A stretch of DNA of 35,744 bases, taken from NCBI GenBank assembly GCA_027575765.1, contig JANBPT010000443.1:1-35744 (forward strand), given 5' to 3'. The notes below the pieces were generated by a model. That model searched no databases and had not been told where the DNA came from. It saw nothing but the letters and a program-made list of their open reading frames with translations. The position numbers and the translations under genes are program-made. Each line of letters opens with the position of its first letter. The first letter of the stretch is position 1. This document shows, piece by piece, positions 5,725 through 35,744 of this stretch. Origin of the DNA: Tieghemiomyces parasiticus (Eukaryota > Kickxellomycota > Dimargaritomycetes > Dimargaritales > Dimargaritaceae).

Positions 5725-6834
5725 TTACGCTCTATCAAGCCGAACTATCGACCCGTCTGCGCTCTTCTGGCCTGGTTCGGAAAGCTTAATCTTAGGGTCA
5801 AGTATGCGCAGGTAACTCTGCAGGGTCCACCGCAGGGCCCACTCACGATGGCGGAGAGTGATGTCGTTCGAGGTGTCCTTTTCCAGCAACTGGCGCACGG
5901 TGGCCAGTCCTAAAACGAGCTCTACGGTGGTGAGAGTGCGGGCTTCGCCCAGGTACACCTGAAGGTCGCCAAGTCCACTCTTGGTGCTGACTTGGCTAGT
6001 ATCTTGGCTGATATTCGAATCGGCGGTGCCGACCTGGCCGACCACGCTCGAGCGCGTCAGCAGGTCGGATGAGGAATTGACCCGACTGAGGGCGCTTGGG
6101 CTATCTGGAGTGTGCGGAGGTTCTGGGTGGTAGGGTCCATTATATCTCGCATGCCGCGGGGGCAGCGGGGGACTGAACTTCACATTATCTGAGGCTCCCG
6201 GGAGTATGGTTGACCTAGTCCCAGACCGTGGGGGCAGGGTTGCACTAACCGCCTCCAGTTCTCTAATCAATTTTTCGGTCGATTCGCTTGATAGGCTGTC
6301 CTTGTCGGGATCCCGATCGAGTGAAGTAACCGCGGTTGTGAACGATGCAGAGCCGTCCAAAGAGCTAGATTCTAGCCGTTCGAGGGGAGACACGATAGGG
6401 CTCGGCTGTGGGGCTTTAGTTAATCCAGCGTGGGGAGAGTCCGGATTCGTGCCTGGGGTAATGAGCTGGTATTTTTCGGCATAGGATACATCGGTATCTG
6501 GTGGCATATCCATACTCGGCTGGGTAGCGACTTGTCGGATGGACCTCCAGGGGTTGTTATGACAGTTGGCACTTCCCGTGCCCCCAGACGGGTGTTGGGA
6601 GTGGCACACGGAGGACACCAAGCGCTGCCACTTAGCGACGACTCTGTCCCGCTTCCGGGTCACCATATGGGATGGGTTCACCCTATCAGCCTGCGCAGAC
6701 GGCAGTGGATCTGTAAACGACGGGGAATTATTCAGCATAGGCTGGTGGAGATTGGTGTCCCCAGTGGGCGTTCCGTTGGTGAATGAGGTAGTCAGAGTCA
6801 ATACCCCGAGGGAGATATATAGCTGAGTGCGCAT
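5725..6834 (-). CDS. Secreted Pro/Ser-rich protein with conserved C-terminal block (paralog B)
   Basis: The frame has 369 codons, ATG at 6834-6832 and TAA at 5727-5725, with no intron. Residues 1 to about 20 form a signal peptide (MRTQLYISLGVLTLTTSFTN). The exported part is rich in Ser, Thr and Pro. Residues 221-228 (SPPLPPRH) form a proline-rich motif at about the place of the one in paralog A. Residues 237-246 (PEPPHTPDSP) match paralog A almost exactly, and residues 287-361 are about 65 percent identical to its C-terminal block (DLQVYLGEARTLT, REWALRWTLQS, LRILDP). Outside these blocks the two proteins hardly align, so change is concentrated in the N-terminal two thirds. Cys 77 and Cys 91 could pair after export. 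Leader bases just before the ATG also resemble those of paralog A. Function unknown. Confidence 0.82.
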   Translation of the reverse strand: MRTQLYISLGVLTLTTSFTNGTPTGDTNLHQPMLNNSPSFTDPLPSAQADRVNPSHMVTRKRDRVVAKWQRLVSSVCHSQHPSGGTGSANCHNNPWRSIRQVATQPSMDMPPDTDVSYAEKYQLITPGTNPDSPHAGLTKAPQPSPIVSPLERLESSSLDGSASFTTAVTSLDRDPDKDSLSSESTEKLIRELEAVSATLPPRSGTRSTILPGASDNVKFSPPLPPRHARYNGPYHPEPPHTPDSPSALSRVNSSSDLLTRSSVVGQVGTADSNISQDTSQVSTKSGLGDLQVYLGEARTLTTVELVLGLATVRQLLEKDTSNDITLRHREWALRWTLQSYLRILDPKIKLSEPGQKSADGSIVRLDRA

Positions 6835-7043: not shown

Positions 7044-8846
7044 ACCGATTTATTTGTCTAACCTGGAAACAGGTCAATGATATTTGGGAGGTCAAAATGC
7101 GGCGGACAAGTGGGGTTTGAATCTCATCCACCCAACTTCGCCCTGTTACACTTGTACGGTCCTGGTCCGGTACACAGCGAGTACAGAATCGCTCGCAGCC
7201 ACTAGTCTAACAATAGAGAGTGGTGTCAAGTGTTTTCCCATTGGTCTGATCTTGCTTCGTTGGCTAAGAGACGACCGCCTCGTTTGCCCACTCAAGCCTC
7301 TTGGGCCCCACCCGGCCGTTGAACCCGCTCCCATGTTTATTTACAATAGAAAAACACGGTTTAGATCCTGCAGTCCAGTCGTGAAAAAAAATATTCACGG
7401 GAAACGTCCAATTGGCAACGTGTGAGCTAGGCCGCTCGGGACTTAACCACGAGTGTGGCGCCCATATGCGAACTCTCCAAGCTACCGACTGCCGAGTCCG
7501 CCCTGCAACCTTCGGCGGGCAACTAAGCGGCCTCGCACCACCTGGCCTTGCACCTTACATCAATGCAGGACTCCGCCCTCCTCCCTGATCCGTTCTCCGC
7601 CTGTTAACCTACTTCTCATATTGTTTAGCATTCCTAGTACTCTTGTCCCCTCTTCTCTTCTACACCTATCACACTCCTACGCTCTCGCCCTACCTCTCTC
7701 GCTTCTCACAGCTCGTATTCGTCTTGCGCTAGCCCTCACCCTAACGTTCGTTTACTAGTTACACTGTCGCACCTCAATAAAACCATTACGCCCCCTACCT
7801 CCACCAGTGCCCTATAGCGACATCACAATGAAAATCGCCCGCTCATGGAGGTGGTTAAGAGGTGACCCACAAATGACCCAACGTTTGGTGTGCCCACTGT
7901 GCTTGGATACGGGACAAAGTTGAAGCGTAAGACAGAGGAGGAGAAGGTAGAGAGGCACTGGGCAGCTCCTGCAGTGGCGGGCGGTGTCCGTGGTGGGTGA
8001 AAATCTACACAAAGCAGCCAGATGTCAAAGGTAAAGGCAATTTGTATATCGCCGCCTTTACTAACAGCCCTCAATTCCTCCCTCATCCTCACCGCCCTCC
8101 GGTTTTAAGGCAGGCTGCGCTCGTTGCTACCACCCCAGGTGTACTACGGGCCATCACCCAGACGAGGCAGAGCGGAGCAGGCATCTACGTAATACCTGAG
8201 TACTACAGCTAGCTACTGGTATCCAAAGTCTCATATTTTGGTATTAGCTGGCTTTCCTGACCCAAACTGTCGTTCACGCCAATGCCCCTAAGGAGGGACA
8301 GGCCGCGGCAACCAATGTTTCCCGGTAACAATTTAATATATTATAAATTGACACTGTAAGGCTACCCAACATTGAGGACGCCAATGGGAGAAAAGGATAC
8401 ATAGTTCCAGCTCATAACAATGGATCAAAAGAGACAGATTAATGTGCCCTACTACAGTGGTCGACAATCACTTTTTTCCGCATAGCTATAATGTCGTTGC
8501 AGTGGCATATACTCGAGCGTCGGTAAATCCGTCGCGAAGTGACGCTAGGACGAGAGGCGGCCTACCAGTCCCAACAATGAAGAACATATGCCAATCTTCA
8601 CCGCGCGACGCTAGTCACATTGGTGAATGGAGAGGCGTGAATGCGGCCAGTGCGCACTGACTAGTGCTCGATATGCAGGGTCATGTAGAACATTAGTGGT
8701 TTTACGGAGCAAAGACCGGCGCTAATTACGGCCGAGATGGTGGATTATCATTCTGGAAAATCGTTTCGCCCTGTCCCTCCCCCTCCTTGCATACCTCTGC
8801 TTTGACCCTTCGCTCTACTCCGTAACCTCGTCACAGTCAATTTTCG

Positions 8847-8854
8847 TATATAAC
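8847..8854 (+). promoter_or_regulatory. TATA box of the small secreted peptide gene
   Basis: TATATAAC, 196 bases before the ATG at 9043. A C/T-rich leader follows (8935-9042), typical of fungal promoters with a pyrimidine-rich start region. Confidence 0.5.
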
Positions 8855-9042
8855 TAGGGGCGGTTCACCGAAAGTCAACGAGCCCAGACAACCATACATT
8901 TTGCACCCATTCTCCGCTCCCCAGTATACAGTGTTCGTCCGCTCGGACCAGCCTCTATTTACCGCACCTTTTTTTTCCATCTCATTTGCACCTAGGTTCA
9001 CAACCACTGTCATTTTATTAGTGCTACTCATACCCGCTCACC

Positions 9043-9231
9043 ATGAATCTGCGTTCCATTGCCATCCTCGTCGTGTTGACCTCAGCTGTGACGGCCCAGC
9101 CCATCGCGTCTGAGGAGGCCCACTTGGAGCGCCGTTGGCTTCCGTTAATCCGGGCCGGCTTTTCAGTCGCCAGAGGGGCTTACAAAGTAGGGAAGGTCAT
9201 CGGCGGCGCCCTAAGCGGTAATAAGAACTAG
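9043..9231 (+). CDS. Small secreted cationic peptide precursor (antimicrobial-peptide-like)
   Basis: The frame has 62 codons, with ATG in good context (CTCACCATGA) and stop TAG. Residues 1-18 form a textbook signal peptide (MNLRSIAILVVLTSAVTA). Residues 19-31 form a short acidic pro-piece containing EEAHLE and ending in Arg30-Arg31, a dibasic site of the kind cut by Kex2/furin proteases in the Golgi. The remaining 31 residues (32-62) start WLPLIRAGF and carry five Arg/Lys and no Asp/Glu. They have small and hydrophobic residues spaced as in an amphipathic helix, then a Gly-rich end (VIGGALSGN). This order of parts is that of linear membrane-active host-defence peptides, with the acidic pro-piece masking the charge until cleavage. 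There are no cysteines, so it is not a defensin. It could instead be a signalling peptide or pheromone. I recognise no specific family. Confidence 0.72.
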   Translation: MNLRSIAILVVLTSAVTAQPIASEEAHLERRWLPLIRAGFSVARGAYKVGKVIGGALSGNKN

Positions 9232-11672
9232 TGAGAGCCCAACAAGACTACTGTATGGCGCTCCTTGATCGAGACACACCTGTCGTATTGAATACGATTC
9301 CACTCGCCTGATTAACCTTCCCGCATTCCCGTAGGGGCGTGGGTATTACGCCTCCTTCTCCCGTACCTACATAGATTTTCATTAGTCTTCTACTTTGTAT
9401 CTTCCTCATTCTCAACATGCATCGCATCCCAGTTACGATAAAAATACTATATCAATTAGTCGGCCTTATCAAAAAAAACTCTAGAACAAGTCTCCCATAC
9501 CAGGCCATTCGCTGCCGTGGATGCCGTGTCGACCCCGGGGCAGTCTGATAGGAGGGGCCATGCATCAAAATGATACTGGATGGTCCCTATGCGTAGGCTG
9601 CTCTCTAGTACATAAGAACTGCTTATAGCGGGCACTATGCCGTCGAACTATTCCACAGCCCGCAGCTTCCGGAACATGGGCACAAACCAGTACCGCGTTG
9701 ATGACTGGCGTAGGCGTACATAGAGGCGAGACTCCCCCCCAATTGAGGCGCTAACGACATAGCCTGTGCAGACTGCGCTTGAGAACGAAGTCCCCTCCTT
9801 CGTCTCTCTCGCTCTCTTTCTCTAGCCCTGTTCTACCCACTCACTGTTTTCTGTTCGACCTATACTTCAACTCTCCGCCTGGACTTCAAACTCCTATCAC
9901 TCGAGTTCATGAGCTGGCGGGTGCTGCCGTCCTGGATTGAAGCGGAAACCAAGAGATCCACAATCTTCTGGTCGATGTGCTCTCTGTAGCGCATACCTTT
10001 TGTATCGCTTTCTCGGGCTTGACCTCAGATTCTCGGTGGTATGCTTTAGAAGGTTCAATGTACCATCCGCGACTGCCTTACCCACTGGATGGTAGTTTGG
10101 GAGAGTGCATGGATGCCGAAGGTCACCTGGGCATCCTGTATTTTACAGTAAATTGGGTCGAAGGACGCGCCATGATTAGAAGGAAACGCAGTGACTTGCA
10201 TAGGGTGTCTACGGACGCATTCCTCTGTCAAGTGCGCTATCGGTAAGGATCAGGTTGACCCGTTACCGCTCTGATGGCTGTGGCCAGAAGGCCCGTCAGA
10301 AGCGGACAGGCTGAAGTTCTAGTTGTGGCCCTTCCTAGTTTGGAGAAATGTGCAGTGTCATCTGCTGCATAGTTTAGCTATTATTCCCACCACGGGGCTG
10401 CATGGGCGCTCTGTGGGGGGCATAGTTGGCATGTGAAAATGGATCAGACACTCGTGGTCGGCCTGTGGTAGGGAAGCTGGTGACACCCCCTGCTATGGAA
10501 CGGATACAACCGTCCCAGCCGAACGCAATTCGTTGAAGCTGCAGCGCTTGTCAGTCACCATCGGCCCTCCGCAACGCCACCCTTACACCATTCATATATA
10601 GTTGATACGCCATTGGGCCACGGATGAAGACTTGGCAAAGTAGTCCGAAGGGCGGCATCCATGAAGGGTTTGGGCTACACAGATAACAACGATATGACGA
10701 CTGCGGCCTTCGTTACTCGCCCCCCTTATCGTTAGTAGGAAGCAGCCGCCCCCGTTAACTGTACCGCGATGCCCCCGCGTAAGGGATTGGGCTTAGCGAG
10801 GACAATCGAAAGTGGTATTTATTCTGCCCCGCTCATGTCCAGCACCAGTTAGACCGCTTCTATTCTCCTGCCTACAACTGGATAGCAGGTCACCTTCAAC
10901 TTTACCTCCGGTAGTAGGCTGGCGTGGATGAGGGATCTGGCAGAGAGGACCGGGAAGAGGTGATAAGCAGCCCCTGGGTGACACAGCTGACGAATTCATG
11001 GACGGCGGGAGCTGGCCCATTCCCTCCCCCATCACGTAGAGTTAATGCGGAGGTGGTACGGCTTGGCCAGCAGTGACAGTGGGTGCAGTGGATGACGTCA
11101 AGCCGCTCCAAAGATGACAGTTGCAAAAAAGTAATTGGCGGCTGGGCGGACATGAGGCATCCAGCCTAAATCTTAACTAGAACTACGTTGTCTTCGATCT
11201 ATCGGGCGGCCTGGCTGGCCGCCCCGCCACCAATGTCAACGGTCCGCTTGCTATGGTCTCTGTCTTCTCAGCAGTGAATACCGTTAGCCATAAGTAGTAA
11301 ACAATGGAGCACTGACTAGGCCCTGGTGAGGAACGACTAGGAAAAGATATCTTCTCACTCGCCAATGCCCAAGTAGGAAATACAGCGTCCCATTTCGTCT
11401 CTGACCGGTCCCTTGCAGGACGCATCAAAAGGAGGAAGGCACCTACTGGCCCAATTTAAAGGGATTGACGTTACAAACCGCCGGGATAAATTCGTGGAAG
11501 GCTATCTGGTCCACCCCGCCAGTCGTGAGGATGGAGGCCGATAGGCGGCATCTGCGACGTCAGACGATTCCTGATAACCCTCCTTGATATTTACGTAAGA
11601 CAGTTACACCGAAAGAGTACCGTCGTGGCACCTGACGGGGAGCTTTCCCTGAGAGCCACCGAATCCTTTCCC
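9232..11672. other. Intergenic region without a recognisable gene
   Basis: These 2.4 kb separate the peptide gene from the first hydrolase. Short frames at 9977-10246, 10793-11153 and 11183-11428 have no motif, no promoter and no family resemblance. A C/T-rich stretch at 9790-9895 is the only compositional feature. A spliced gene of very short exons could be missed by eye. Confidence 0.4.
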
Positions 11673-11680
11673 TATAAATA
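11673..11680 (+). promoter_or_regulatory. TATA box of the first ABHD-type hydrolase
   Basis: TATAAATA within CCTATAAATATG, 226 bases before the ATG at 11899, followed by a C/T-rich leader. Confidence 0.6.
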
Positions 11681-11898
11681 TGCAGGGAATCTCCCCTCTC
11701 CCGACGGCTCGAAATAGATTATAGTCCGTAAGCCTCGAACATTTTCATCCGTATAATACATCAATTCTCTGACTCCCTCCCCCACCTCAACCTCGTCATA
11801 TGCTACCGACCCATCTCCGCTGCCTCCTACTCCCCAATCTGCAGCCTTTTTCTTTCTAGGCCCATTTTTAACCCACACACGAGGCCAGTTAACCAACC

Positions 11899-13698
11899 AT
11901 GTTCAGCCTCAGTAGCGTCAATTTGTTCAGTACCGGCGTCCCACACCTGGGTGCACTCCAGGACTACCTCCCCTCACTCAATAGCCATTGGCCCACCAGC
12001 CCAGAGAAGGCTCGGGCCGTCGAATGCAAGCACCTATCTTTATTGCCTTCCTTCCGCCCGGTCGAACCCCTCGAGGAGTACCTGCGGACGCTAAGCCCCG
12101 ACGGCCGTGACTATCACGCCAGGCTGTGTGAGGCTACCGCAGTCTCCGGCGAGGGCGAGTTGGTGGCTCGGGTCGGCGATGTAGCCATCGGCCAGGGCCA
12201 GTTTATACGAACCTTCATGATACATCGCGAACATACCGTCCACGCCAGTCCCAGTGACTCGGCCGAGGGTAATGGTGACGGGTTCGCCGCTTGCCCTCCG
12301 TCGTCACCCACCATCTCCCTGTCTTCCACCGACTCGCTACCTGTGCACCCCAGCGAGACCGCCCCAATTGTCATGATGCACGGATTCGGCGGTGGCCTGG
12401 GCCACTACTACCGCAATTACGAAGCCCTGGCCGCTCCCGGCGGACGTATCGTGTATGGGCTGGACTGGCTCGGGATGGGCCTAAGCAGTCGGCCGACGGA
12501 TCTACCGTGGTTCACCTCATCGTCCCCTCCCTATAGGGACACTTCTGGATTGGATAAACCAAGTGCCAACTCAACCCCAGCTGCCACAGCCATTGATTCC
12601 ACCGTGGCCGTCGACGAGGAGAATTCCATGACCCGTCGGGCCGAGGAGTTCTTTGTAGACGGACTGGAGCGTTGGCGTCAGGCTATGGGCATCCCTCAGC
12701 TCTTTCTTATCGGCCACAGCTTCGGTGGGTACATGTGCGCTGCCTACGCCATGAAATACTCGACCCGCGTGGAGAAACTGCTCCTCCTCAGCCCCATGGG
12801 TATTGCCGAACCGCCCCCGGGTTACCGCGAATGGGCCAACCGCGTCACCCACGGCGATCTGGATGTTATCCTGCCCTCTGCAAAGTACCGACGCCGCATT
12901 CCTCCCACCCTGTGGAAACCTGCCCGTGACCGGAGACAAGCAAATTTATCATCAGTCCCAACCGCCCCCGCTAATACCGGGGAACAACGGGGGACAGTCC
13001 AAGTCCGGTCACGACCCAGCGTGGCCCCTATGGTCACCGACACCAAGGGCAACGCCCCCGGCTCGGCCTTTCCTGGCTTTCTGGATCCCGTCCCCGGGCC
13101 GACCACCATAATGACCACCCCTGATGGAGAATCGGATGACGACCCGGACTCCATCTATGAAGTGGTCCCACTAGCCGGCCAGGATGACCAGTTCCACCTA
13201 CCAGGCTCTCCGGAGAATTTTATTCGCCACCCGCGGCTATTGGGCCACGTTTTTGCGCAAATCTGGACACGATGCCTCTCCCCGCAGTGGTTCGTAAGGG
13301 CCTTGGGCCCACTAGGCCACACCTTAATCCGCCGGTTCTGCTCGGATGGTCCCAAGTCCCTTGACCCGGACGAGGTCGCCCGGCTCAACGACTACGTGTT
13401 TCACCTGGCCGCCCTCCCTGGCTCGGGCGAGTATGCCTACACGGCCCTGCTCACCCCGTACGCCTTTGCGCGCCGTCCGCTGCGTCACCGCGTTAACCCA
13501 CAGACCCTGACTGTACCCTGCGTGGTTATGTTTGGCGAGCACGACTGGATCAATATGGGCGGTGCCGAGGCCATGGTCCGCGGCCTTCCCGGAGACTCCC
13601 GCGTGGTATACTTTTCCGGTGCAAACCACACCGCCATGCTGGAGAATCCTAGTGAGTTTAACCAGTTTGTCTTGGAGGAACTCGGCTATGTGGACTAG
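11899..13698 (+). CDS. Alpha/beta hydrolase, ABHD4/ABHD5 (CGI-58)-like, copy 1
   Basis: Intronless gene of 599 codons; ATG context CCAACCATGT, stop TAG. The alpha/beta-hydrolase fold is seen in order: oxyanion-loop HGFGGG (161-166), RNYEALA, then DWLGMGLSSRP typical of the ABHD4/5 and yeast CLD1/ICT1 group. The nucleophile elbow is GHSFGG with Ser274, followed by EKLLLLSPMG. The likely acid is Asp549 (GEHDW) and the His is His577 (ANHTAMLENP). With Ser, Asp and His all present it should be an active lipid hydrolase or acyltransferase acting on lysophospholipids, cardiolipin or triacylglycerol; the substrate cannot be chosen from sequence. Animal ABHD5 has about 350 residues. The excess here is low-complexity insertions near 205-243 and 335-430, in the cap region. 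The acyltransferase motif HX4D of the family reads HX4E (H577, E582). It is paralogous to 32542-34272. Confidence 0.9.
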   Translation: MFSLSSVNLFSTGVPHLGALQDYLPSLNSHWPTSPEKARAVECKHLSLLPSFRPVEPLEEYLRTLSPDGRDYHARLCEATAVSGEGELVARVGDVAIGQGQFIRTFMIHREHTVHASPSDSAEGNGDGFAACPPSSPTISLSSTDSLPVHPSETAPIVMMHGFGGGLGHYYRNYEALAAPGGRIVYGLDWLGMGLSSRPTDLPWFTSSSPPYRDTSGLDKPSANSTPAATAIDSTVAVDEENSMTRRAEEFFVDGLERWRQAMGIPQLFLIGHSFGGYMCAAYAMKYSTRVEKLLLLSPMGIAEPPPGYREWANRVTHGDLDVILPSAKYRRRIPPTLWKPARDRRQANLSSVPTAPANTGEQRGTVQVRSRPSVAPMVTDTKGNAPGSAFPGFLDPVPGPTTIMTTPDGESDDDPDSIYEVVPLAGQDDQFHLPGSPENFIRHPRLLGHVFAQIWTRCLSPQWFVRALGPLGHTLIRRFCSDGPKSLDPDEVARLNDYVFHLAALPGSGEYAYTALLTPYAFARRPLRHRVNPQTLTVPCVVMFGEHDWINMGGAEAMVRGLPGDSRVVYFSGANHTAMLENPSEFNQFVLEELGYVD

Positions 13699-29359: not shown

Positions 29360-31293
29360 TCAGACCGAGACGAGCGGGGAAGGTCGACTACCACGACGAG
29401 GTGAGGCAGGTGGGGGCACCTCGGGCGGCCCCAGATTGACCAAAGCCTCACCGAACCCCGCGGGGGTGATCACGTACGGGAACTGGCAGGCTGGAGCGAT
29501 GGGGGACTTAGCGATAGTGATGGCGCGGGCGACCACGATGGGACGGTGGACGGCCCCCCCAGTGGAGGCTAGTGAGGGCAGACCCCCCGTTTCGGGGCTG
29601 GCCAGGGTGCGCACAGTAAGTCGAGTGGTGACTAAGTGAGCCCAGGTATTACCCAGGGCTGCGCTGGTGGAGAGGCCATCTTCGTGGATATCTATACATC
29701 ATCGGAAACGAGGTGGGTGTCGGGGTGGGGTGGGTTAGACAGAGTGGGTAGCGGAGGGAGGGAGGAGTTGTGAGAGGCCGGCACCTAGTGGCTACCGCCG
29801 TTTCGCTGTGTCTGCAGCCCTCGCCATCTACCGAGAACTTACCAATATCGGACATGGACGGCACGCCCAGGACTCGCGGGCGTGCAAACCGCGTCGTAAC
29901 TTGGTTGGTCACGACCACGGGAATACTGAACGTCTCGGCTATATGCTTCAAACTGCTAGCCTCCCAGGTGAGTAGGTCAGGCAGTGTGTTCCGATCGTCG
30001 CCTGCCAGGCGTGGTCTCTTATGCAGTACATCGCCAAGAGGACCACTTTCCTCACTAGCCCGCTGGTTCAAATGACGACGCATGATGAAGGCGATCGAAT
30101 CCACCAAGATCAACTTGATCTTGTGCTGGACAATGAAGCCTTCGAGAGAGCGGAGGCTGGAAAGTGAAAAAAAAATCACCCGTGTGGACAAAGAGAATGA
30201 GGTGCTGTTAGGCTTGATGTGACCACCCATTTTTAATGACGGGCCAGTCCCCTGCCCGGCATAGGACGGATGGTAGGGTTACAGATGACCTACCGCTCCC
30301 GAAATTGTTGAACCGAGTCCAACGAAGCGACGTGCACACGGTCGGTGACGGTGGCCAGGAGATCTGGCGACGCGATAGCGCCCTGTAACTCGATGATATG
30401 GGCGGTGATTTCTTGCAGTCTGTGGGCGAGTTGCAAAAAAGAAGATAAAGTAGCCGTGACCAGGGTTAGTGACCAAGCCTGCGAATAAAAAGGCCGCTTA
30501 CCATATAAATTGTAGCGGTACATTGGGTCGAACATACCTTGTTGCGCTGAAGGCTCCTTCTGTGTCAAAATACAATACATGGCCGTCGGTACCACCAAGG
30601 TTGAGGGGTAGAGCGGTCCGGACGGTCAGGGTCAGGCACAGCTGAGTCTTACCGCAGCCGGGAGCACCGACCACCTAAGGGGTAGCAGAGAATCAGGATG
30701 GCACGGGTTGAAAAATGGTTAGCTGAGGCATCGCGGCACGCAAATAGGCACGCCTAGCCTACGGTGGCGATTTATTGCCTCAGTGGGCGCTCGGCGGCTT
30801 ACCTCGGTGACTGACGACCGGGGGATACCACCCCCTAAGGCAGTGTCCAGGGCATGATGGCCGCTAGAAAGCGCGATGGAGGCCCGGGGCTCCATCTGGG
30901 AATGATAGAGGTCTTTAACCTATGTACGGGCGGCCGCGGCAAGGAAGAGGGATGTGCCACCATGCCGAAAACACAAGGAGTATATTAAAGTGAGTACATC
31001 CAAATCACCAGAGCGCCGAAGTAGTATTTAGTTAGGGAACAGTTCCTGGTGGAGGACGCACTTACGTTCTGGGCCCGTACCGACACGGCGTACACGGCAG
31101 AACAGACGCGCTGGTACAGCTGCGCAGCGTCTGAGGTTTTTAGGTCGCAAATTTCGGCCAGTTCGGTCATAGTCAGGCCCAATAGGTCGCGGCAGGTGGC
31201 TACGGGGCGCGGCCGGTGGGCGCGAAGAAGGGCAAGGGCCGACTCTGACGGGCGTTTGGCCGGCGGGAGGCGCTGAAGTGGTCGCTGGGCCAT
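29360..31293 (-). CDS. RAD51B: RAD51 paralog, RAD51B-like recombinase, six exons
   Basis: Exons are 31293-31066, 30919-30803, 30674-30538, 30419-30294, 30156-29843 and 29691-29360. Phases agree at all five joins and give 417 residues (human RAD51B has 384). Introns run 118-151 nt. The N-terminal helical part (TCRDLLGLTMTELAEICDL) matches the paralog N-domain. Walker A is GAPGCGKT at 118-125, Walker B LILVD at 218-222. EASSLKHIAETFSIPVVVTN, followed by QVTT, and GNTWAHLVTTRL near the C-terminus are specific to RAD51B rather than RAD51, XRCC3 or Rad57. RAD51B works in the nucleus with RAD51C (BCDX2 complex in animals) to help load RAD51 at broken replication forks and double-strand breaks. A 30-residue insert after Walker B contains HKRPR, possibly a nuclear localisation signal. 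No strong TATA box is present; a weak GTATTTATTT lies near 31515, about 220 bases upstream. Confidence 0.9.
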
Positions 31294-32541: not shown

Positions 32542-34272
32542 ATGACCACCGCAGACCCGGCTACCACGACGGGCGAAAGCGCCATTGCCCAGCCGCCCAT
32601 CCCGTTCCGCCACTACCTCACCACTCTGCCCGGCCGGTGGCCCTCCACCGAGTTCAAGGCCCACTACGCTGAGCACCAGCTGCTCTCCAATATCTCCTTC
32701 TTTTGCCCCGACGAACCGCTCGAGTTACCTACGGCCCCGATTTCCCGCGACGGCAGCAATGTGTGCGGTGGTACGGCTACAGGCTTAGTATCGCACGTGT
32801 GGAATCGTCTCTCGCCCTTCAGTGGGGGACACACTATGGTAAACAAGACCACCCAATGCACTGCCCGCACCACTTCTAGCAATGCCAGCGCCGTGTCAGC
32901 CACCAACAGCCCCTCGCAGACACCGGCCTCTCCTTCCGGTTGGGTTGCCCGTGTGGGCAACATCGACATTGGTAACGGTCAATTCCTCCGCACTGTGGCC
33001 CTCGAGAGGGAAGATGGCATTTACACTACCACGACTGGCGGCCAGGAAGCCGCACCGCTCGTCATGGGTCACGGTTTCGGTACCGGTATTGGCATTTTTT
33101 TCCGCAACTACGAATCCCTAGCCGTACGCAGCGGTCGACGCGTCTACGGTATCGACTGGCTCGGCATGGGTCTCAGCGCCCGACCGAACGACCTGCTCTG
33201 GCTGAAAGCGGCCCGGAAACACCCCGACGATCCGGCCACCGTCCACCAAACCGAGGCATTCTTTATTGAGGCCCTAGACCGCTGGCGCGCCACCATGGGT
33301 ATCGAGAAGATGGTGCTACTGGGCCACAGCTTCGGCGGCTACATGGCCGCCCTCTATGGTCTTCACTATCCGGACCACGTTGAGAAGCTCCTCCTAGTCT
33401 CACCTATGGGCGTAGGCGAGCCACCCAAGGGGTTCATACCCTGGGTTCGCCAGATGATGGAGGGAAAGGCCACGGACTTTTTTCCGGGATTCGGAGCCGA
33501 CCGGCCGCGGGCCACCGGATGGGTACCTGGTACCGAGGTTGAACTAGCCAATCCGAATTACGCCAATTTGCCACCCCAGGAAGTACAGGAGACTATTGCC
33601 CAACAAGCTGAGGAGTACGCTGGGGTAGACCTGCCTCCGGCCGAACCGACGGCGAAATCTGACACCACAGATCCGACTACTGGTCCGTCACAGCCGGCCG
33701 CCGCGGACGGTGACGATGAGCGAGTCTGGAAAGCGGGCACTCCGGAGCACCGCCGACAGCCCCGATTACTTATAAACAACCGCCAATTGGTCCTCAAGCT
33801 GGTGGCCATGGTCTGGCGGTCACACTACTCCCCGCAGTGGGTCATTCGTAGGGGTGGACCCCTCGGGTCCATGCTGGTCAACCAGTACATTGGCCGCTAC
33901 GAGTACCTGCCGTTGCCCGAACGCAATGCCCTATCGGACTACCTCTACCACTTGGCCAGTCGGCCGGGGTCCGGTGAATATTCTCTCACCATCCTGACCT
34001 ATCCGTTCGTCTTTGCCCGCCTCCCGCTCGTCCTGCGTCTTACTACCCTGCGTGTGCCCACTGTGTTCATGTACGGCGAGAACGACTGGATGGACTACCG
34101 TGGCGCCGAGGCTGCCTCTCGCCAAATGCCTGTACCCACTCGGATTGTCCATATCGCCAACGCCGGCCACAACCTCATGGTCGAGAATCCGGAGGATTTT
34201 AACGCCTACGTACTCAAGGAGTTGGCCATCAGCGGAGACCGGGTTAGTGCAGACCTTGTTCCGGACTTGTAA
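32542..34272 (+). CDS. Alpha/beta hydrolase, ABHD4/ABHD5 (CGI-58)-like, copy 2
   Basis: Intronless gene of 576 codons; strong start context (CAACACCATGACC), stop TAA. Domain marks: VMGHGFGTGIG with the oxyanion His177, RNYESLA, YGIDWLGMGLSARP, then GHSFGGYMAALYG with nucleophile Ser263. EKLLLVSPMGVGEPP follows, then YGENDWMDYRGAEA with acid Asp515 and AGHNLMVENPEDFN with catalytic His543. The triad is complete, so it should be an active lipase, phospholipase or lysophospholipid acyltransferase at lipid droplets, ER or mitochondria; the exact substrate is unknown. A variable Thr/Ser-rich segment lies near residues 75-135, and a Pro/Ala/Asp-rich insertion at about 335-410 replaces part of the usual cap. 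It is clearly paralogous to 11899-13698, with the same WLGMGLS, RPGSGEY/LPGSGEY and HX4E features. The two copies lie about 19 kb apart on the same strand. Confidence 0.9.
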   Translation: MTTADPATTTGESAIAQPPIPFRHYLTTLPGRWPSTEFKAHYAEHQLLSNISFFCPDEPLELPTAPISRDGSNVCGGTATGLVSHVWNRLSPFSGGHTMVNKTTQCTARTTSSNASAVSATNSPSQTPASPSGWVARVGNIDIGNGQFLRTVALEREDGIYTTTTGGQEAAPLVMGHGFGTGIGIFFRNYESLAVRSGRRVYGIDWLGMGLSARPNDLLWLKAARKHPDDPATVHQTEAFFIEALDRWRATMGIEKMVLLGHSFGGYMAALYGLHYPDHVEKLLLVSPMGVGEPPKGFIPWVRQMMEGKATDFFPGFGADRPRATGWVPGTEVELANPNYANLPPQEVQETIAQQAEEYAGVDLPPAEPTAKSDTTDPTTGPSQPAAADGDDERVWKAGTPEHRRQPRLLINNRQLVLKLVAMVWRSHYSPQWVIRRGGPLGSMLVNQYIGRYEYLPLPERNALSDYLYHLASRPGSGEYSLTILTYPFVFARLPLVLRLTTLRVPTVFMYGENDWMDYRGAEAASRQMPVPTRIVHIANAGHNLMVENPEDFNAYVLKELAISGDRVSADLVPDL

Positions 34273-35675: not shown

Positions 35676-35676
35676 T

Positions 35677-35744
35677 CGATCCAAGCAGGACTCGAACCTG
35701 CAATCTCCTGATCCGTAGTCAGGTGCCTTATCCAATTTGGCCAT
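35677..35744 (-). tRNA. tRNA-Arg(ACG), first six bases beyond the window
   Basis: Reading the minus strand from the window edge: D-arm GCC/GGC around AAATTGGATAA; anticodon stem CCTGA/TCAGG with loop CTACGGA, anticodon ACG at 35716-35714 (reads CGN, arginine after A34 is converted to inosine); variable loop AGATT; T-arm GCAGG/CCTGC with loop TTCGAGT; 3' acceptor strand TTGGATC with discriminator G. The B box GGTTCGAGTCC is intact and there is no intron. The 5' acceptor strand should read GATCCA just outside the window. Confidence 0.93.

Follow-up and report, generated by a model that had tools for sequence, protein, structure and literature searches.

The window analysed here, a 35,744-nt stretch of DNA from a Dimargaritales-like fungus, contains a 62-codon ORF on the plus strand that is probably a real gene and that reads as the precursor of a secreted peptide. 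On the full reading, Kex2 would release from this precursor a membrane-active amphipathic peptide, and we put the probability of that reading at roughly 0.5. The ORF occurs in two copies of the same architecture, the genome carries a kexin gene, and the peptide is amphipathic in sequence. The features of the window copy are as follows.

9043-9231, plus strand: 62-codon ORF with its stop codon (translation; intact in the second copy, on contig C703; codon-use rank)
9043-9096, plus strand: predicted signal peptide, residues 1-18, with a putative cut after Val-Thr-Ala (identical 18 residues in the second copy)
9097-9135, plus strand: acidic pro-piece, residues 19-31 (translation, both copies compared)
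9124-9135, plus strand: Leu-Glu-Arg-Arg, a Kex2-type site with Leu at P4 (same in both copies)
9136-9228, plus strand: mature peptide, residues 32-62, a predicted amphipathic helix of net charge +5 (helical moment, helical wheel, AlphaFold)
9019-9021, plus strand: in-frame TAG ahead of the start codon (shared by the second copy)
8847-8853, plus strand: TATATAA, a possible TATA box (weak)
8740-9042, plus strand: 303 ATG-free bases upstream of the start, presumably with the leader inside (previous ATG at 8737)

Translation confirmed the protein elements described in the first-pass annotation: the frame, its start (in the context ACCATGA) and stop, the hydrophobic N-terminus, the acidic pro-piece, the Arg-Arg pair at residues 30-31 and the cationic tail, which within 31 residues has five basic residues, no acidic residue and no Cys. 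The signal peptide was called by a crude rule of our own writing that cuts as early as its limits permit, here after residue 15; we placed the cut after Ala18 by reading the sequence, and secretion of the 62-residue product is predicted from the crude rule. The annotation had also credited the ORF with its own TATA box. TATATAA is present, but it is weak evidence, as matches to TATAWAA are not rare (10 in the window against 6.2 expected, with as many in 12 of 100 shuffles) and the second copy differs at this site, reading TGTATAAC where the window has TATATAAC.

The genome (46.5 Mb in 1363 contigs) holds one other copy of the peptide ORF, on C703. Its protein is 84% identical to that of the window copy, and its frame is intact, with no internal stops. 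The C703 match is collinear with positions 1-26245 of the window at 90.2% identity and stops where C703 ends; near 20 kb, identity drops from about 92% to about 85%. Within the ORF, 172 of 189 nucleotides are identical (91.0%), compared to 94.0% in the 350 bases before it and 88.8% in the 269 bases after it. Both copies retain the start and a stop, TAG and TAA. Residues 1-18 are the same (three synonymous changes, no non-synonymous ones), the pro-piece has one synonymous and two non-synonymous changes, and the LERR-W junction is kept, with LERR at residues 28-31 in each copy. The mature part differs at 8 of 31 residues; in C703 it also carries a net charge of +5, made up of six basic residues and one acidic. 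The first-pass annotation had proposed searching related genomes for conservation of the Arg-Arg site and the mature part, and in the one copy within reach the former is kept while the latter has changed. A whole-genome DNA search with positions 8800-9240 and a protein search at E up to 10 found no copies beyond these two, and as both returned the same pair, we found no multigene family.

From the long collinear match, the window and C703 look like two haplotypes or subgenomes rather than products of local duplication. The alpha/beta hydrolase of the window has a 94% identical partner on C703. Contigs C474 and C500 carry hydrolase matches that are more distant, score similarly to each other and may be another pair. 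According to a review, the Dimargaritales are mycoparasites and Dimargaris cristalligena may be non-haploid (PMC10386755).

This hydrolase, at 11899-13698 (plus strand), is the ORF of recognizable family nearest to the peptide. Of 7996 candidates scored against it, eight proteins were listed at E up to 1e-20. Apart from the window's own protein, the list comprises seven from Dimargaris, Tieghemiomyces and Dispira, 30-53% identical. By taxonomy, Dimargaris cristalligena, Dispira simplex and the genus Tieghemiomyces belong to the Dimargaritales, and the genome therefore probably comes from this order. A second, diverged alpha/beta hydrolase ORF lies at 32542-34272 (plus strand), 38% identical to the first over the matched part, and a match on C473 scores similarly to it. 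The ORFs at 1213-2313 and 5725-6834 (both minus strand), 366 and 369 aa long, are related to each other; by eye their N-termini look signal-like, and neither matches a Pfam family. A genome search with the latter returned four matches, the two window ORFs and their C703 partners (pN/pS 0.48 and 0.59). An ORF at 29649-30230 (minus strand) has a Rad51 match that falls short of the curated cut-off (18 bits against 22, E 0.0018) and is possibly an exon of an intron-bearing recombinase gene. At the contig end, a tRNA-Arg (acg) occupies 35676-35743 (minus strand), with its 5′ end cut off in the Rfam match.

The first-pass annotation held that the full order of features is rare by chance in so short a frame. 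Under a first-order Markov null of 400 simulated windows, a window should contain 0.0075 ORFs with this strict, full order (3 of 45,440 simulated ORFs of 45-100 aa) and 0.125 with a loose order, consisting of a signal peptide, a dibasic site and a cationic Cys-free tail. This null yields about 114 ORFs of 45-100 aa per window, compared to 77 in the real window. Across 20 stretches of the same genome (159,087 bp), none of 449 ORFs of 45-100 aa has the strict form and one has the loose form. Taken by themselves, signal-like N-termini are no more frequent than expected (3 against 3.3). The order is thus rare both in the null and in the genome, but the rule was written with the peptide already in view and is post hoc, and the second copy, with its six basic residues and one acidic residue, satisfies the loose form only.

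One rival to a gene is that the ORF is a chance open frame, non-coding sequence that reads like a prepropeptide by accident and that has stayed open in the second copy because a divergence of only about 9% has not yet closed it. We consider this unlikely. Codon use argues against it: with a score trained on 2342 codons from six window ORFs taken as genes, of which Pfam identifies two as hydrolases and one as a RING protein and matches none of the other three, the full score of the peptide ORF was reached by 2 of 99 non-overlapping control ORFs, its synonymous-only score by 1 and its third-position GC by 5. The lack of any ATG in the 303 bases preceding the start points the same way: start-to-start gaps of at least this length make up 9 of 553 on the plus strand, counting the peptide's own, and 7 of 517 on the minus. 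The corresponding gap measures 250 bases in the second copy and 98-193 bases for five of the ORFs taken as genes. The adjoining 59-aa ORF at 9248-9427 (minus strand) is intact in C703 too, has a pN/pS of 0.67 and lies outside the 15 best controls by codon score.

Comparison of the two copies gives the accidental frame more room. Intact ORFs are common: within the match, 31 of 90 ORFs of at least 40 aa are intact in C703, as are 4 of 15 of 60-69 aa (peptide included), in a count that treats any alignment gap, even an in-frame one, as a loss of intactness and in which the 90 include the peptide, likely genes and overlaps. The 91.0% identity of the ORF also resembles that of its surroundings. Whole-ORF pN/pS is 0.60 (6 synonymous and 10 non-synonymous changes), compared to 0.23 for the hydrolase and close to the values given above for the two neighbouring ORFs with signal-like N-termini, which favours a gene. 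Among the remaining 30 intact ORFs, however, 13 show a ratio of 0.60 or lower, some of these 13 being likely genes or overlapping them; two of the 30 have no ratio for want of synonymous changes. We therefore rejected intactness and pN/pS as stand-alone gene tests, both being common among other ORFs.

The distribution of the changes is more informative. When 17 random substitutions were simulated 20,000 times, the frame remained intact in 8030 cases and residues 1-18 were kept in 467; only 134 combined an intact frame with unchanged residues 1-18 and the Arg-Arg pair, which speaks against an accidental frame, with the caveat that these features were picked after the fact. The overall count of changes is itself unremarkable, as 7896 of the 20,000 runs gave ten or fewer amino-acid changes. 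In the mature part, the 8 non-synonymous changes over 69 sites amount to 0.116, about the synonymous rate of the hydrolase (0.115), with 2 synonymous changes over 24 sites; we thus see no purifying selection there, and change at a roughly neutral rate is what a chance frame would show. Nor is the retention of charge and helical moment in the second copy beyond chance, as both survived in 3,896 of the 14,903 simulated mature parts that were free of stops. The contrast in non-synonymous change between the leader (prepro) and the mature part is not significant (Fisher p 0.097). Taken together, the two-copy comparison suggests that the leader is constrained, and it neither supports nor excludes selection on the mature peptide.

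The helical moment of the tail exceeds what its composition gives, which also counts against an accident. When the residues of the window copy were shuffled 5000 times, 82 of the shuffles reached the moment of all 31 residues, and 27, 21, 30 and 9 reached that of tail segments 1-24, 2-23, 1-18 and 6-23. The second copy is ordinary over its whole length (363 of 5000), and the same segments gave 92, 118, 146 and 9. The helical wheel and structure prediction that the first-pass annotation had proposed agree with a basic, helical peptide. On the wheel, both copies have a single basic face, formed by residues 37, 44, 48 and 51 at 100-160 degrees. AlphaFold models, built from one or two sequences, predict one helix without a kink over tail residues 2-27 for the mature peptide alone (pLDDT 83.1, pTM 0.29). 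For the precursor, they predict a single long helix over residues 3-58 that runs through the signal peptide and the pro-piece (pLDDT 70.8, pTM 0.33; pro-piece pLDDT 58-69). GxxxG spacings occur at 50-54 and 55-59.

A candidate processing protease is encoded in the same genome. On C353, one 981-aa frame has peptidase S8 and P-domain matches in order, as a kexin gene. LERR fits the Kex2 motif with Leu at P4 as described in PMC8528282. The genome also has at least 38 listed Peptidase_S8 (subtilase) matches, of which 8 lie in frames of exactly 851 aa, suggesting an expanded secreted-protease family.

Searches for relatives placed the peptide in no family. In the protein database, we found no homologue sharing three 5-residue words with either the single protein or the two-copy alignment, a search that misses distant relatives. 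Pfam, which includes cecropins, and NCBIfam gave no family for the full-length or the mature form of either copy at E values up to 10, with HMMER filters that drop most weak matches. Two matches from a PDB sequence search (E 7.8 and 9.3) were both to EccD5, and we took them as chance. The protein database contains the window's own hydrolase and lacks the peptide. This absence would be expected of a chance frame; if the gene is real, gene calling presumably passed over an ORF of this length. We found no report of such a peptide in Dimargaritales in a literature search that lay mostly outside subscription journals and was aimed only in part at that group or its subphylum. By sequence, then, the peptide appears to be an orphan that belongs to no known family we recognize, of a general kind already known.

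The first-pass annotation had proposed a new antimicrobial or signalling peptide precursor. A secreted, Kex2-processed precursor of an amphipathic cationic peptide is supported by its anatomy, codon use, the kept leader and LERR-W junction, the kexin gene and the helical moment. Antimicrobial and signalling roles are both candidates only, and the sequence gives no grounds for choosing between them.

We infer expression, cleavage, a helix in membranes, a target and an activity along the following lines. A small and apparently intronless gene, absent from the protein database searched, would encode the 62-residue product, which the signal peptide would take into the secretory pathway. The acidic pro-piece would hold the peptide quiet until kexin cut after Leu-Glu-Arg-Arg to free 31 residues with a net charge of +5. 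At a membrane, these would form one amphipathic helix with the four basic residues on one face, within a 60-degree arc, and the GxxxG spacings may assist helix packing. The most likely action would be to bind and permeabilize microbial membranes, whether of bacteria or of the mycoparasite's fungal host. In a narrower version, which we offer tentatively and would not bet on, a mycoparasitic, early-diverging fungus would use an independently arisen, single-core, Kex2-released amphipathic peptide to permeabilize the hyphae of its fungal host, with the leader held constant while the mature part changes at a neutral or faster rate in an arms race.

Secretion and processing might instead serve an effector or signal that acts at a specific receptor or target of the host fungus, or a mating or quorum signal, without membrane lysis. 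Kex2-cut pro-domains have been inferred for about 30% of 120 fungal effectors (PMC8528282). Co-evolution would be expected to leave the leader constant and the mature part changing, but the contrast between them is not significant here. Ascomycete alpha-pheromone precursors can carry a single peptide copy, but the 31 residues here exceed the 9-24 given for alpha-pheromones (PMC6339444). Cationic amphipathicity and a model that shows no fold beyond a helix also tell against a role of this kind, which we regard as improbable.

Least credible by far is a first exon of a larger spliced gene, one of the outcomes that the first-pass annotation had named as a refutation: a six-frame reading is blind to introns and a donor-like GTGAG begins at 9231 with the last base of the stop codon, but no string from our short donor-motif list occurs inside the ORF before the stop or elsewhere in 8693-9600, no plus-strand ATG ORF in 9232-11898 ranks among the 15 best controls by codon score (ten start-less frames of at least 50 aa in this interval lay outside the scoring), and both copies keep their start and stop.

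If the membrane-active, Kex2-released peptide is real, it is a short Cys-free fungal peptide missing from the protein database searched, and a cheap-to-synthesize candidate for how Dimargaritales-type mycoparasites affect hosts or competitors. It would also indicate that comparing two copies within one non-haploid genome can help find such genes.

Several known systems resemble this architecture. Candidalysin, which Kex2 releases in a fungus from a precursor of several tandem peptides, is likewise cationic, free of cysteine, helical and amphipathic, and has about the same size. The present peptide would be similar in kind, with a single peptide per precursor; we claim no sequence relation. KEPs (KEX2-processed repeat proteins) share the signal peptide and the RR site and are reported in some Zoopagomycota, but PMC6339444 defines them by four or more fragments bounded by KR/RR sites and three or more repeats, whereas our precursor has one RR site, one core and no repeats.

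K2PP (Kex2-processed pro-domain) effectors of fungi share an N-terminal pro-piece, a Kex2 motif with Leu at P4 and a mature part that follows it (PMC8528282). They are recognized as secreted proteins with KR/RR or LxxR in the first half, after a disorder-prone pro-piece; LERR lies at residues 28-31 of 62 in both copies, with secretion called by our crude signal rule and the pro-piece made helical by AlphaFold. The K2PP effectors that we saw named in PMC8528282 come from plant pathogens, whereas here a 31-residue tail with no known effector activity occurs in a relative of mycoparasites.

Linear alpha-helical antimicrobial peptides, according to PMC8074791, have 12-37 residues, typically with a kink or hinge. 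Our peptide has in common with cecropins, magainins and other linear helical peptides its length, a predicted helix and a cationic amphipathic face; the examples of such peptides that we saw in PMC8074791 come from animals. The present model lacks a kink, and the peptide has no Pfam family at E up to 10. In sequence, the window copy has the traits of the linear helical cationic class (31 residues, +5, no Cys, a moment reached by 82 of 5000 shuffles), and the second copy has them more weakly (363 of 5000). By its anatomy, the peptide would work like the linear helical antimicrobial peptides.
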